Of a DNA stretch of 64,000 nucleotides, positions 36,450 through 54,566 are shown in pieces. Numbering within the stretch: the stretch's first letter is position 1; each line of letters begins with the position of its first letter. The DNA is taken from assembly GCF_013141825.1 (NCBI RefSeq), contig NZ_RZNH01000004.1:146132-210131 (forward strand). The letters run 5' to 3'. Below the pieces are notes generated by a model. That model searched no databases. It had not been told where the DNA came from and saw only the letters and a list, made by a program, of their open reading frames with translations. Source of the DNA: Marinifilum caeruleilacunae. GTDB lineage: Bacteria > Bacteroidota > Bacteroidia > Bacteroidales > Marinifilaceae. The position numbers and the translations under genes are program-made.

Positions 36450-36545
36450 AAGGCCTCGCACAAGCGAAGCCTTAATTGTTAGTGATTAGTTAGTGGTTAG
36501 AATTCGCTTGCCTAATAGCAAGAAAATCAGTTGTGTGATTAGTAA
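36450..36545 (-). ncRNA. Candidate small RNA or attenuated cit leader carrying the complement of the TTAG-motif
   Basis: On the minus strand a -7-like CATTTGTAA (36551-36559 area) is followed by about 95 bases that end in a hairpin AAGGCTTCGC / GCGAGGCCTT (36450-36473, loop TTGT, one mismatch) and a T-rich tail (TGTTGTTTTC). Inside it, minus-strand TCTAACCACTAA (36490-36501) is the exact complement of TTAGTGGTTAGA, the most conserved part of the small RNAs at 53.4 and 54.0 kb. It could be a separate RNA, an attenuator in front of the cit operon, or a decayed plus-strand copy of the same family. Confidence 0.35.
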
Positions 36546-50035: not shown

Positions 50036-53000
50036 TTATTTCTGACGTTTTCTTCTAATTCTGATGTCTCCTTCAGGCAATATGGTTACCCATAGGATTT
50101 CAATAAGAAGTAAGAATCTTCGAAGCACATCAAAATACAGCGAGAAGTAGAAGATGATTGTGGTGAGCCAAATAATGATCACATTGAACCAGAATGTATC
50201 GATCAGGTAATTACCCAGTCGCTTTTGAGAAGCAAACAGGTGTGCTCGCCCATTTGTACTATTGGGAGTTTGAAATACCGGGTCTTTTAATTGTATCAGT
50301 TCATCTTCATACCTAATCAACTTATTGAGTTCTCTTCTGTTTAAAGCAATTTGTTCTATTGCCTCGTTATGGTATGAATTTTTGAAATCAATCATCTTTT
50401 TACGATCCCCTAGCTCATCAATCATATCACCGTAAATCTTATCTCTCAAACCAGATTGACTATTGTACTCTTTCCAACCTGCTTGTTTCACTTGTTCGAG
50501 CCACATATTTACTGTTTCTGAGGAATCTTTCAGCATCTTTTTTGTAAACTCGATGTGTGTAGGGAAATTGTATACATCCGAGAGTTTTAGCAGTTCATTT
50601 TTAAATATGCGGTAATGTTTGTCATTATTGGTTTTAAGCCAGGCTTTGTAATTCTCCTGTATTTCCGGAATCAGAAAAGAAGACCTGAAAGATGATTCGC
50701 TCATTGCCTGTTCGAAGGAGAAGAACTGTTTTTCGAATTCGTTATTACTAAATTGTTCAACAACCAGTGCTTCATAGGCCCAACGCGAAGTCATTAAATC
50801 ACCAACAATGGGCACATATTTTTGCGATGTGATTGCCGGGTGAAGTTTATTAAAATTTACAATCACTCCAGAGAAGAGCAGTTGTGGCACCAAAATAAAC
50901 GGAATGGATACGTAAACAGCTACTACAGAATTCAATCCGGCAGATAAATTCAAACCAATTAGATTGGCACAAGCCGAAGCTGTATATAATATCAACCAGT
51001 ATTCCCAGGTTAATCCTTTAATTTCCAGAATTGAATTGGCCAATATCACAAAAAGGAAAGTTTGAATGGCCGAAATTACCAGGAGTACAATCACTTTTGA
51101 ATTTAGGTAGCTCGATCGGCTCAAATTTAGAAATTGTTCACGTTTCATCATGCGCCTGTCGTGCAATATCTCCTCCGCAGATATAATTAAGCCTAAAAAC
51201 AAAGCCACAACAACAGCCATGAATATAAAAGATGGTATGTTCTCATTTTTTGAGAATACATAGGCCATGTGATCGGCATCGGTACCACTAATATACTTGG
51301 TAAAATAGCCTAAGATAACTGCCAGCAAAGGTGCTTCCAACAAAGTAATCAGCATGTATTGCCTGTTACTCAGCTTCGATTTAATATCTCTCGACAGGTA
51401 AATCTTTAACTGATCCCATCGCTTCGGAATGCTAAAGAAATTTTGTGGGATTAACTTTTTTCTTCGTGGCTCACGGACTTTATTTTTCTTTTCGATATTC
51501 TCTTTATACAGATCATACCATTCATCGGAACTGCGTTTTCGTTTACGAATTTGCTTGCCATACTCATTCATCATACGGGCTTCGATAATTCGTAAAATCT
51601 GCTCCGAGTTTACATTACCACAGGTTAGGCATTCGCTTTCATCGGCCTTTACGTAGTGCGACTGCGTTTTAAAGTACACTACCGCATCAATCGGATTTCC
51701 AAAATAGATCACTTTTCCTCCCTGATCCATCATGACTAGTTTATCCAATAGCTTAAAAATATCTGATGACGGTTGATGAATATTACAAATCACCAACTTG
51801 CCTTTTAAAACTTGTCGTTTCAGTAAAAGCATTACCTTTTCGGAATCCATGCTCGACAAACCTGATGTTGGCTCGTCCACCAAAAGTACCGACGGCTCAC
51901 GCATCAGCTCCAGGGCAATATTCAAACGCTTTCTTTGTCCTCCACTCAAAACTTTATTAATCGGATCTCCAACTTTAAGATCCCTGGCCTCAACCAAATC
52001 AAAATCTTCAATGGTTTTGTCTATAATCTCTTCAATTTTCTCGTCTGAAGTATCATCGAAGCAAAGTTTTGCATTAAAATAGAGGTTTTCGTAAACGGTA
52101 AGTTCCTCAACCAGCAAATCATCCTGGGGCACATAACCAATAACACCTTGCAATTTTTCTTTGTCAAGATGAAGATCGTAACCATTAATGTATATGTTTC
52201 CTTGTCGCAAAGACAAATTCCCGTTCAGCACATTCAACAAGGTAGATTTTCCTGTTCCCGAACCTCCCATAATACCAACTAACTGTCCCGAATTCATTTC
52301 TAAACTTACCGGATGAATCCCATTATTGGATCCTGGAAATTTAAATTCTATATTTTTGGCAACGAATTGCAGGTCGCTCAAATTCTTTTTCTCGATAAAA
52401 ATCGAAGAAATCTGTGAGTAATAAATCGGATCGATTCGATGAGACCTGATTACCGATCCATAAGACAATAGATAAGCTCTATCGACCTTAATGTTATGTC
52501 CATTCAAAAAGAGGTTGTATTCTCCAAAATACTTCATCAGGAAGGTATTGGTACTTTCCAGGTGGAGTATAAAAATTCGTCCTCTCAATTTTTCACTATG
52601 AATATGTCGAACTACCTCATGTGTCCACTCCTCATTATTATCAATCAATAGCAGGTGCTCGTTGAAAGGAATCGAAAGTTCATCGCCTATAATAAATTGT
52701 CGACTTAACTCAAATTCTTTTTTGGGAATGTTAAAGGTTTTGGAAACTGTCTTCACCAAATCCAGCTCATCGTGACCCGTGTATTCTGTTTCATCGATAA
52801 ATTCTAACAGTTGGAGCATGATCCAAACTTTTTGCTCCTGCTCCACTTCTTCCACCAACTTCTCACAAACATGCTGCACCTGCGGATGCTTGTTAATAAA
52901 GCAAACCTCACCTGTTTCATCGCAATGAGAATCTTTCAAATATCGATCAAAATCTTCCAGGTATTTCTCTGTCCACTCTTTACTGAATTGTTTCTGAAGC

Positions 53001-53104
53001 CACACCTCTACAACATCTCTTGCAGCAGTTTCAAATCCCAACTTTTGCTCATCTACAATAATGGCAAATAGTTGCATTAAAGCTTTCAGTAAAGATTCAT
53101 TCAT
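50036..53104 (-). CDS. Large ABCG-like ATP-binding/permease fusion protein
   Basis: 1022 residues. N-terminal ~240 residues: helical domain with an acidic SPFNEH-type linker of unknown function, with a Cys/His-containing segment (DSHCDETGEVC). ATPase (about 250-490): Walker A GGSGTGKSTLLN, signature LSGGQRKRLNIA, Walker B VLLVDEPTSGL. A Cys-x2-Cys element (ECLTCGN) follows. The rest holds an ABC-2 membrane domain (about 600-800: LLAVILGYFTKYI, FIFMAVVVALFLGLIISAEEI, LLVISAIQTFLFVILANSIL, ASACANLIGLNLSAGLNSVV), a soluble insert and a C-terminal pair of helices (FNVIIIWLTTIIFYFSLYF). Substrate unknown. Single gene. Confidence 0.85.
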   Translation of the reverse strand: MNESLLKALMQLFAIIVDEQKLGFETAARDVVEVWLQKQFSKEWTEKYLEDFDRYLKDSHCDETGEVCFINKHPQVQHVCEKLVEEVEQEQKVWIMLQLLEFIDETEYTGHDELDLVKTVSKTFNIPKKEFELSRQFIIGDELSIPFNEHLLLIDNNEEWTHEVVRHIHSEKLRGRIFILHLESTNTFLMKYFGEYNLFLNGHNIKVDRAYLLSYGSVIRSHRIDPIYYSQISSIFIEKKNLSDLQFVAKNIEFKFPGSNNGIHPVSLEMNSGQLVGIMGGSGTGKSTLLNVLNGNLSLRQGNIYINGYDLHLDKEKLQGVIGYVPQDDLLVEELTVYENLYFNAKLCFDDTSDEKIEEIIDKTIEDFDLVEARDLKVGDPINKVLSGGQRKRLNIALELMREPSVLLVDEPTSGLSSMDSEKVMLLLKRQVLKGKLVICNIHQPSSDIFKLLDKLVMMDQGGKVIYFGNPIDAVVYFKTQSHYVKADESECLTCGNVNSEQILRIIEARMMNEYGKQIRKRKRSSDEWYDLYKENIEKKNKVREPRRKKLIPQNFFSIPKRWDQLKIYLSRDIKSKLSNRQYMLITLLEAPLLAVILGYFTKYISGTDADHMAYVFSKNENIPSFIFMAVVVALFLGLIISAEEILHDRRMMKREQFLNLSRSSYLNSKVIVLLVISAIQTFLFVILANSILEIKGLTWEYWLILYTASACANLIGLNLSAGLNSVVAVYVSIPFILVPQLLFSGVIVNFNKLHPAITSQKYVPIVGDLMTSRWAYEALVVEQFSNNEFEKQFFSFEQAMSESSFRSSFLIPEIQENYKAWLKTNNDKHYRIFKNELLKLSDVYNFPTHIEFTKKMLKDSSETVNMWLEQVKQAGWKEYNSQSGLRDKIYGDMIDELGDRKKMIDFKNSYHNEAIEQIALNRRELNKLIRYEDELIQLKDPVFQTPNSTNGRAHLFASQKRLGNYLIDTFWFNVIIIWLTTIIFYFSLYFDVLRRFLLLIEILWVTILPEGDIRIRRKRQK

Positions 53105-53341: not shown

Positions 53342-53386
53342 TTAACACTTATTTTCAGGTCTTAACCAAATCTTGCCATACCTTTG
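53342..53386 (+). promoter_or_regulatory. Promoter region of small-RNA unit A
   Basis: TTAACAC at 53342, CTTAACC at 53361 and the -7 box TACCTTTG at 53379-53386. TTAAC lies 41 bases before the TTTG in units A, B and C, and the second box 22 bases before it in all three. Confidence 0.6.
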
Positions 53387-53392
53387 TAATGT

Positions 53393-53481
53393 ACTACAAA
53401 AGATAGTATTTTCATAGATTAAAGATTTAGGTTAGTAATTAGTGGTTAGAGAGAATCCCGGACGCCCGTTCGGGATTTTTC
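53393..53481 (+). ncRNA. Candidate small RNA A
   Basis: About 89 bases. After GTAATGTAC come TTTTCATAGATTA, then GATTTAGGTTAG, TAATTAG and TGGTTAGAGAG (a ladder of TTAG units 5-7 bases apart), then a terminator TCCCGGAC-GCCC-GTTCGGGA (8-bp stem with one G-T pair) and TTTTTC. No start codon with a plausible frame. Closely similar to units B and C. Confidence 0.65.
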
Positions 53482-53651
53482 TTTTTAGGCAATCCGCTCT
53501 CAGCTAAAGCAGCAGGGCTGCGAAGTATTTATAAAAACAAAGGCTTGTCTTTTAAATTAGGTGTAGAGCACCGAAGTATGAAATACTAAATTTTCAACGC
53601 TTTTAAGTTACCTTAACCAATTGTCACTACATTAGGAACCATTGATTCAAA

Positions 53652-53765
53652 TCACCCTTTAGTCTTTCGACAGTTTTCCTCACAGGGAAACAGCCCGTAA
53701 TTTTCAGCAAACTTTAACATTTATGCTTCCCTTTTTAGGGGAAGTGCTGACAGACGAAGGGGTGA
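53652..53765. repeat. Imperfect palindromic element between small RNAs A and B
   Basis: 114 bases. The outer arms TCACCCTTTAGTC... and ...GACGAAGGGGTGA pair over about 28 bases with mismatches. Inside are two smaller hairpins, GTTTTCC/GGGAAAC (53673-53691) and GCTTCCC/GGGGAAG (53725-53743). The layout looks like a REP- or MITE-like intergenic palindrome or a multi-stem RNA. No transposase nearby. Confidence 0.6.
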
Positions 53766-53802
53766 TATAAAATAGTACCAAAACCCCAACTTTTAAGTTT
53801 CA

Positions 53803-53847
53803 TTAACTTTTGTTCAAAGCATTTAGCACATTCACATGCTACATTTG
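53803..53847 (+). promoter_or_regulatory. Promoter region of small-RNA unit B
   Basis: TTAAC at 53803, TTTAGCA at 53822 and the -7 box TACATTTG at 53840-53847, with the same spacing as units A and C. Confidence 0.6.
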
Positions 53848-53853
53848 TAAAGT

Positions 53854-53942
53854 ACAAAACAGAGAAAGTTTTTTCAAGATTAGATTTAGATTAGTAAATA
53901 GTGGTTAGAGAGAATCCCGGGCTTGAGAGTTCGGGATTTTTC
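53854..53942 (+). ncRNA. Candidate small RNA B
   Basis: About 89 bases. GTAAAGTAC, then TTTTCAAGATTAGATTTAG, ATTAGTAAATAG, TGGTTAGAGAG, then a terminator TCCCGGGCT-TGAG-AGTTCGGGA (9-bp stem with two G-T pairs) and TTTTTC. The stem sequence differs from A but pairing is kept. Confidence 0.65.
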
Positions 53943-53977
53943 TATGTATAAATCAAACACAAAGAAATTAGATTTAA

Positions 53978-54022
53978 TTAACACACGTTTAATGTCCTTA
54001 ACCTGTGTGCATCCTATATTTG
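53978..54022 (+). promoter_or_regulatory. Promoter region of small-RNA unit C
   Basis: TTAACAC at 53978, CTTAACC at 53997 and the -7 box TATATTTG at 54015-54022. The 41- and 22-base offsets to TTTG equal those of A and B. Confidence 0.6.
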
Positions 54023-54028
54023 TAATGT

Positions 54029-54120
54029 AGAAAAAACCTTAGGAGTTTTTTTTCATAGATTAGTGATTTAGGTTACATTTAGTGGTTAGATTGAAATCCG
54101 GGTGGGGACCCGGATTTTTT
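54029..54120 (+). ncRNA. Candidate small RNA C
   Basis: About 92 bases. TTTTCATAGATTA, then GTGATTTAGGTTACATTTAG, TGGTTAGATTG, then a terminator TCCGGGT-GGGG-ACCCGGA (7-bp perfect stem) and at least six T. The T-run meets the stop codon of the convergent GNAT gene. Confidence 0.65.
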
Positions 54121-54566
54121 TATAGCTTTTTTTCGAAACAAACACTATTTTCAACAGCCTGATATTGACCATAGTTGGAAATGCGATAATATTGGTTTTT
54201 CAGATACAAAGCTATGGCTTCAGGTTGCTTTAAACCAGTTTCAAGAATGCATTTCTCTGCACCCAGTTCTTTTGCCCAGATTTCCAGTTCCATTAAAATT
54301 TTTGTTGCCAAAACCTGTCCTCTAAAATCAGGCTTCACATACATTCTTTTGATTTCCATTACAGCAGTGTCGTATTCTTTAATTGCACCGCAGCCCACAG
54401 GCTGTTCTTCCAGGTACAAAACCAATACATGATTCAAATGATCGATGGTATTGAATTGGGCATAAAAAGCATGTTCATCACCATCGCGAATGGCCAGGTC
54501 GGCATCCAGTTCCTGAACCAATGCGATAAAATCGTTATTCCTGGAATTTGTACGAATGGTTTTCAT
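54120..54566 (-). CDS. GNAT-family N-acetyltransferase
   Basis: 148 residues of the GNAT fold. The acetyl-CoA-binding loop is RMYVKPDFRGQVLATKILMELEIWAKELG, and KCILETGLKQPEAIALYLKNQYYRI is the C-terminal strand-helix-strand. Substrate unknown. It lies 9 bases after the LAS-type protein gene on the same strand and converges with small RNA C. Confidence 0.9.
   Translation of the reverse strand: MKTIRTNSRNNDFIALVQELDADLAIRDGDEHAFYAQFNTIDHLNHVLVLYLEEQPVGCGAIKEYDTAVMEIKRMYVKPDFRGQVLATKILMELEIWAKELGAEKCILETGLKQPEAIALYLKNQYYRISNYGQYQAVENSVCFEKKL

Follow-up and report, generated by a model that had tools for sequence, protein, structure and literature searches.

What is encoded in a stretch of just over a kilobase that holds no evident gene and in which three similar sequences follow one another? 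In the window, the 64,000 nucleotides of Marinifilum caeruleilacunae analysed here, there is no ORF of at least 50 codons between 53105 and 54119. This gap of 1,015 bases is bounded by two minus-strand genes: an ABC-2 transporter gene (50036-53104) turns its 5' end towards it, and a GNAT gene (54120-54566), convergent with the last of the three sequences, its 3' end. An earlier note on this DNA had proposed three homologous genes for small RNAs, lying in over 1 kb without coding and without a plausible frame of their own, and all of this is supported. The three units, A, B and C, lie on the plus strand and share 78% mean column identity when aligned, homologous tandem arrays are present in relatives, and no ORF over the array (53342-54118) exceeds 40 codons, on which ground a protein-coding reading was rejected. 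No tRNA, tmRNA or Rfam family at its cut-off was found within the window. Carriage by phage or plasmid was also considered, and was dropped when unit B matched nothing in either the phage or the plasmid collection.

The predicted RNA of unit A spans ca. 90 nt (53393..53482), with a start site placed from the -7 box, and those of unit B (53854..53944) and unit C (54029..54122) are predicted likewise; the 3' end of unit C runs into the stop codon of the GNAT gene. Model R1, of which all three units are training rows, scores them at 95.7, 100 and 72.3 bits, respectively. Each RNA contains a core, or seed, at 53407..53438 in unit A (UAUUUUCAUAGAUUAAAGAUUUAGGUUAGUAA), 53869..53897 in unit B and 54048..54075 in unit C (UUUUUUCAUAGAUUAGUGAUUUAGGUUA). 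The shared body described earlier holds in so far as TAGTGGTTAGA occurs exactly in all three units (53440-53450, 53899-53909 and 54080-54090), but has to be amended for unit B, which carries CAAG where most family members carry CATAG, so that its complement to a start codon is damaged. With at most one mismatch, TAGTGGTTAGA is found six times in the window against 0.83 expected, and 0 of 100 shuffles reach six. One further exact copy (36491-36501), directly 3' of a GC-rich hairpin-like stretch and without promoter boxes, is probably unrelated to the units.

All three units are preceded by the same promoter pattern, TTAAC-N15-TTARC-N12-TANNTTTG, which a pattern search finds three times on the plus strand of the window and never on the minus strand. 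The copies read TTAAC-N15-TTAAC-N12-TACCTTTG for unit A (53342..53386), TTAAC-N15-TTAGC-N12-TACATTTG for unit B (53803..53847) and TTAAC-N15-TTAAC-N12-TATATTTG for unit C (53978..54022), with identical spacing that is kept in relatives. The boxes noted earlier are thereby recovered at fixed spacing, with one correction that concerns the boxes of sigma-ABfr promoters (-7 TAnnTTTG and -33 TTTG): the -7 box is present, but the second box is a TTARC 12 nt upstream of it, where the -33 TTTG would stand, and not that TTTG itself. Promoters of the sigma-70 type show no surplus over shuffles. With up to one mismatch, the pattern has 11 hits in the genome that holds the window (G000), 16 in G001 and 8 in G010, while the reversed pattern used as a control has 1, 2 and 2. 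Downstream of all 11 hits in G000 lies an RNA that has UUAG repeats, a core of the UUUUUUCAU type, or the two together; a contig end falls before the terminator at C162:36714, and the RNA on C149 has no exact UUAG. The eight G010 hits, all inspected, are of the same kind, and one of the six inspected in G001 (L160) leads into a divergent body without the core. No protein gene was seen downstream of the promoter among these inspected hits (11/11 in G000, 8/8 in G010, 6/16 in G001). The same promoter (C162, 863-907 in G000; L174 and L184) also stands before a putative sibling RNA that has TAAATAGTGGTTAG twice and no UUCAU, suggesting that the 3' ladder may have a role of its own.

Each unit ends in its own intrinsic terminator, at 53451..53480 in unit A (stem 53456-53463/53468-53475), 53915..53941 in unit B (53915-53923/53928-53936) and 54097..54120 in unit C (54097-54103/54108-54114), all on the plus strand and with the stems that the earlier note had quoted. 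The stems were read off the sequence, and folding of the whole RNA (z of -2.36, -2.97 and -2.38 for A, B and C) predicts a weakly structured body and a strong terminator; a simple terminator scan reports that of unit A alone of the three. The claim that selection acts on stem pairing was examined in two alignments, and compensatory terminator changes uphold it in both. The 46 distinct units contain 42 distinct RNA parts, 41 of which entered the MAFFT alignment A2 (one over-long row omitted, five trimmed). Here, 92.0% of the 286 cells of the terminator helix are paired and 12 are double changes, and 0 of 500 shuffles are as high, while two other measures, the number of pairs with a change on either side and that of additional pair types, are not above shuffles. 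The model-fitted alignment A4 of 63 matches, which leans towards its own structure, has 94.1% of 422 cells paired and 145 double-change cells, again with 0 of 500 shuffles as high. For a 40-row alignment drawn from the whole order (A3), no common terminator structure is predicted.

How far does the family extend? A DNA search matched 17 of 58 genomes, the own genome included. A profile search of the fetched loci then found units of nearly full length in 14 genomes, all of them among the 34 that were sampled from this GTDB family; G032, with a weak partial profile match, is counted among the other 20, and a match in G021, which hits an inserted repeat and not a unit, is not counted. Marinifilum and Labilibaculum carry their units at a common position, in syntenic arrays of 2 to 7. 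The protein encoded next to the array in the window is 82-90% identical to its counterpart in named Marinifilum records, while identity is 76-77% for Labilibaculum and 66-67% for Ancylomarina, so that the window resembles Marinifilum most. When model R1 was run on 19 of the 22 loci found through neighbour proteins, units appeared in 14. Where both flanks are complete, there are 2 to 5 units per locus in Marinifilum and 4 to 7 in Labilibaculum, the largest array being the seven units of L. euxinus (L112), and L104, L108 and L113 are interrupted by contig ends. At E<=0.01, model R1 finds no units in the Ancylomarina loci L115, L116 and L122, nor in the distant L119 and L121. R1 scores are equal among three of the units in L118 and between two of those in L112, which suggests growth and homogenisation of the arrays. 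In addition, and beyond anything in the earlier note, the genome holds further members elsewhere: its 10 matches to model R1 (E<=0.01) and 11 promoter hits describe a multicopy paralogous family. Judged by sequence comparison, the units belong to a dispersed, tandemly amplified family of the Marinifilaceae.

An alternative is that the units are silent remnants or a mobile repeat, copied DNA without a regulatory role. Homogenised copies in L118 (three) and L112 (two) would agree with it, and a MITE-like element does travel with unit-B-like copies; against it stand the compensatory changes in the stem, the promoter spacing that stays constant and the presence of a related core in many families of the order, and we regard it as very improbable. 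The MITE-like element itself (53641-53790, with ends TCACCC.../...GGGGTGA), which folds strongly (-40.9 kcal/mol as RNA), sits just ahead of unit B, behind a conserved spacer of the array, and is bracketed by an 18-base direct repeat (53600-53617 / 53790-53807). In G001 (L169) the spacer joins the unit directly, and copies of the element accompany unit-B-like genes on C167 and C129. The 113-base spacer (53505-53617) has relatives beside units in other arrays, e.g. L169 and L187. Another kind of insertion, of ~100 bases, follows UUUUUUCAUA in the sRNA copies of L182 (1500-1760) and L158 and is followed by a second UUUCAUA; as it is present in two genera, it is perhaps old and may yield a longer RNA.

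We then turned to known RNA families. The earlier note had not recognised the family, and here its view has to be revised. The core (UUUUUUCAUAGAUUAGAUUUAGGUUAGUAA) together with the terminator can be aligned with Rfam FopS (RF04319) over its whole length, well under the cut-off: a permissive scan gives 24.1, 18.7 and 25.3 bits for units A, B and C, full length, in register and on the plus strand, where the gathering cut-off is 56 and no unit of the window reaches it. Over the 5.27-Mb genome the best RF04319 match has 38 bits and none is over the cut-off, and seven of the best 14 matches are family members found by promoter or model R1. In the same permissive scan MicC ranks above FopS on unit A, with 29.4 bits, and the rnk leader matches too. 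Both families come from unrelated bacteria, both matches are far under their cut-offs (90 and 55) and MicC matches the back strand as well; these candidates were rejected.

RF04319 exceeds its cut-off in 65 of 344 genomes from the order, and model R1 has matches at E<=0.01 in 67. Loci were obtained for 30 of the listed R1 matches. The 29 from other genomes have in common a U-rich stretch followed by UUCAUA (changed in a few), repeats of the UUAG type and what looks on inspection like a terminator, but not TAGTGGTTAGA. Alignment A3 combines 28 of these 29 loci, L100 being omitted deliberately, with 12 family rows, and the resulting model R2 (40 loci) was built without L100. The 35 loci tested are all under every Rfam cut-off, comprising 28/28 order loci and 7/12 family loci (L033, L018, L025, L159, L171, L167 and L009, the last in the window; L012, L017, L020, L021 and L111 were outside this check). 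Model R2 nonetheless recovers the true FopS RNAs L100 and L194, at 47.6 and 45.0 bits, which score 70.1 and 73 bits in RF04319. Together with the full-length RF04319 match, this recovery marks the units as a FopS-like family, a variant of the FopS kind and a recognisable relative at the level of sequence. We read the likeness as common descent, with convergence on the same target signature as the less probable alternative.

FopS has 14 paralogues in B. thetaiotaomicron, and the mechanism of susC repression has been demonstrated for FopS-10 (PMC11697453). The units share with FopS the multicopy paralogues, a short single-stranded 5' core followed by a terminator, the TAnnTTTG -7 box, the order of core elements (UUUUUCAU-UUAG-UUUA-GGUUA) and the predicted pairing over the susC start. 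They differ in the Rfam score, which is under the cut-off, in the double-TTAAC promoter, in sequence beyond the FopS consensus at both ends (a leader on the 5' side, TAGTGGTTAGA as an extension on the 3' side), and in that no RRM protein was found in the host genomes. They also form arrays of 2-7, whereas the word 'tandem' is absent from the main text of the FopS paper (PMC11697453), although G165 carries a tandem of three over-cut-off FopS. GibS (RF04182) has an R1-type seed in common with FopS and gives a weak match to unit A (18.4 bits), which does not approach its cut-off of 115; its length of ~145 nt and its PM2 promoter set it apart from the units, and it has a second seed region, also called R2 (PMC7366714). 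DonS-type RNAs are antisense to susC and encoded in cis beside their target (PMC7366714), whereas the array sits between ABC transporter and GNAT genes. Among literature titles, no sRNAs of Marinifilum and no work on the FopS family were found beyond PMC11697453, PMC7366714, PMC9723704 and PMC12119571. Outside this phylum, the likeness is to LhrC of Listeria, Qrr of Vibrio and OmrA/B, sibling sRNA genes with a shared seed and private terminators, and is one of description, not of sequence comparison.

A further finding that goes beyond the earlier note concerns the targets, since the core is antisense to susC starts: CTAAATCTAATCTATGAAAAAA, with which its reverse complement ends, reads as leader sequence followed by a start codon and codons for lysine. 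We paired cores with windows from -60 to +45 around start codons (ViennaRNA duplexfold), using 30 of 33 over-cut-off susC genes in G000 (L052 with an in-frame stop), 24/24 in G105 and 30/48 in G375, along with 27 of 30 susD-like loci of G000, which lie downstream in the same operons. The 30 susC starts of G000 have a mean of -17.0 kcal/mol, with 13/30 at -18 or better and 17/30 pairing less well than that. The 42 window ORFs reach -11.4 kcal/mol (0/42 at -18), a background of 345 ORF starts, taken from the window plus 400 kb of genomic sequence, -10.7 (4/345; Fisher p 6e-13) and the susD-like starts -11.1 (0/27; p 2.7e-5). These values are to be read with the start choice in mind, as susC starts were picked by a signal-peptide heuristic, by which a few look wrong, and background starts are the first ATG, a weakness that the susD control shares less. 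When only MK/MR starts are compared, susC (-19.5, n=19) still differs from susD (-11.7, n=18; p 1.5e-5). Pairing with the leader alone only just separates susC from susD starts (-10.4 versus -8.3, p 0.013), so that much of the signal comes from AUGAAA. None of 120 shuffled cores reaches the susC mean, and the reversed core gives -11.0 (0/30). Longer segments reach -34.3 kcal/mol (41 nt of unit A, core included, with the susC start of L073) and -35.6 kcal/mol (the paralogue on C173 with L072), and the core of unit B is the weakest of four tested cores for 20/30 susC starts. Near-perfect antisense as a simple target rule was dropped, as the 20-nt core complement with up to three mismatches has 5 hits, of which one is unit B read on its back strand, and the reversed pattern has 3.

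In G000, complementarity is strong, enriched at susC and generic to UUAG-type cores. In fact, four foreign cores also separate the own susC from the own susD starts (p 8.1e-5, 1.8e-5, 8.9e-4 and 1.1e-4), indicating that seed-target matching is generic, with susC leaders suiting any core of the UUAG type. Against 60 shuffles, core_f1 has z of -10.3 on the own susC starts, -6.5 in G105 and -4.7 in G375, and separates susC from susD with p of 2.7e-5, 0.013 and 0.69, respectively. Within G105 its local core does not separate the two (p 0.085), and two local cores of G375 do so modestly within G375 (p 0.012 and 0.008). Seed-target covariation across genomes is weak or absent on these figures (G105 p 0.085, G375 modest, foreign cores working as well) and was not retained, and the complementarity is only suggestive as a class-wide rule.

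We consider it likely that the units are paralogous, ~90-nt, FopS-like RNAs that repress susC translation in trans, be they a Marinifilaceae branch or a convergent twin of FopS/GibS. Each sRNA would be made from its own double-TTAAC promoter when a putative regulator is active, in answer to a putative signal, and would end at its own terminator. The regulator may be of the LytTR type, as a guess from the direct-repeat spacing, which resembles that of AgrA sites. The single-stranded core, UUUUUUCAU and a UUAG ladder, would pair with the CUAA-rich leader, the AUG and then the AAA codons of susC-type mRNAs, with many mRNAs for susC-type TonB-dependent transporters as targets. Such pairing would block ribosome entry and thereby shut down glycan-uptake operons that are not needed, and copy number may set the dose and supply slightly different cores. 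It is unlikely that the RNAs are expressed and have other main targets, such as mRNAs of secreted or outer-membrane proteins, or that they activate instead of repress. Some well-pairing background starts do encode secreted-looking proteins, e.g. L239 18063-19295 at -20.3, and only 13/30 susC starts reach -18; set against this is the enrichment of susC over both the 345 background starts and the susD-like starts of the same operons.

The RRM protein RbpB is a binding partner of FopS and acts against the repression (PMC11697453). No RRM (PF00076, E<=0.001) was found in G000, which is 99.96% complete, nor in any of the 13 further genomes whose units are confirmed; of the 20 remaining genomes drawn from the same family, 17 have one. 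The known partner of FopS seems to be missing or unrecognisable here, e.g. as a diverged RRM below detection, and repression by the units may be independent of it. The unit-bearing genomes form one clade, however, so the pattern is not an independent correlation. Mutual exclusion of sRNA and RRM was rejected as a general rule: it holds only in the close family (0/14 versus 17/20), and weaker R1 relatives in G007 and G022 coexist with RRM genes.

That no RRM was found also bears on a different function for the ladder, namely that UUAG repeats titrate an RNA-binding protein, RRM or other, as CsrB titrates CsrA, with susC complementarity being secondary. The units would lend themselves to this in that their UUAG-type elements are conserved while linkers vary, and the C162:863 sibling keeps TAAATAGTGGTTAG twice without UUCAU. 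Such a decoy is nonetheless improbable, since RRM_1 was found in 0/14 unit-bearing genomes against 17/20 others of the family, since the UUUUUUCAU part, which has no obvious decoy role, matches the ladder in conservation in most units, and since shuffled and reversed cores lose the susC pairing.

Post-transcriptional control of glycan uptake by paralogous sRNAs has been described for Bacteroidaceae (PMC11697453). If the units are indeed repressors of susC translation, the same logic would operate in environmental Bacteroidales, expanded there as tandem sRNA arrays under a promoter of their own and with no need for the RRM protein that counteracts the sRNA in Bacteroides, and a rule that can be tested would follow for telling silenced susC genes from the others by sequence. 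A broader version is conceivable, although we hold it only tentatively: FopS may be one Bacteroidaceae branch of an old system spanning the class Bacteroidia, in which a UUUUCAU-UUAG core is generic antisense to a CUAA-AUG-AAA signature of susC, and in marine Marinifilaceae this system may have become a dedicated regulon of at least 10 sRNA genes with a private two-box promoter that works without any RRM protein. In a draw of 395 genomes from the phylum, model R2 (E<=0.001, stricter filters) matched 11: the own genome, three more of the order, six from other orders of the class (f121 and f124, with the same architecture) and a doubtful one. A universal distribution in Bacteroidota was discarded on this count, G549, the sole match outside the class, being the one that looks doubtful.

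Two smaller observations concern related sequences. In family f124, the loci L192, L193, L195 and L196, over no Rfam cut-off, contain a highly conserved RNA with UUUUUCAUAAUUUAAAGUUUGGUUGGUUAUUUAGG and a terminator, preceded by AGGGGTGGTTCCCT. In G000, weak matches to the FopS model fall on the strand opposite to susC, either over the start of the gene or upstream of it (C11 13265-13346 and 5708-5788, C191 7695-7797), and represent either the target signature read in reverse or DonS-like antisense RNAs.
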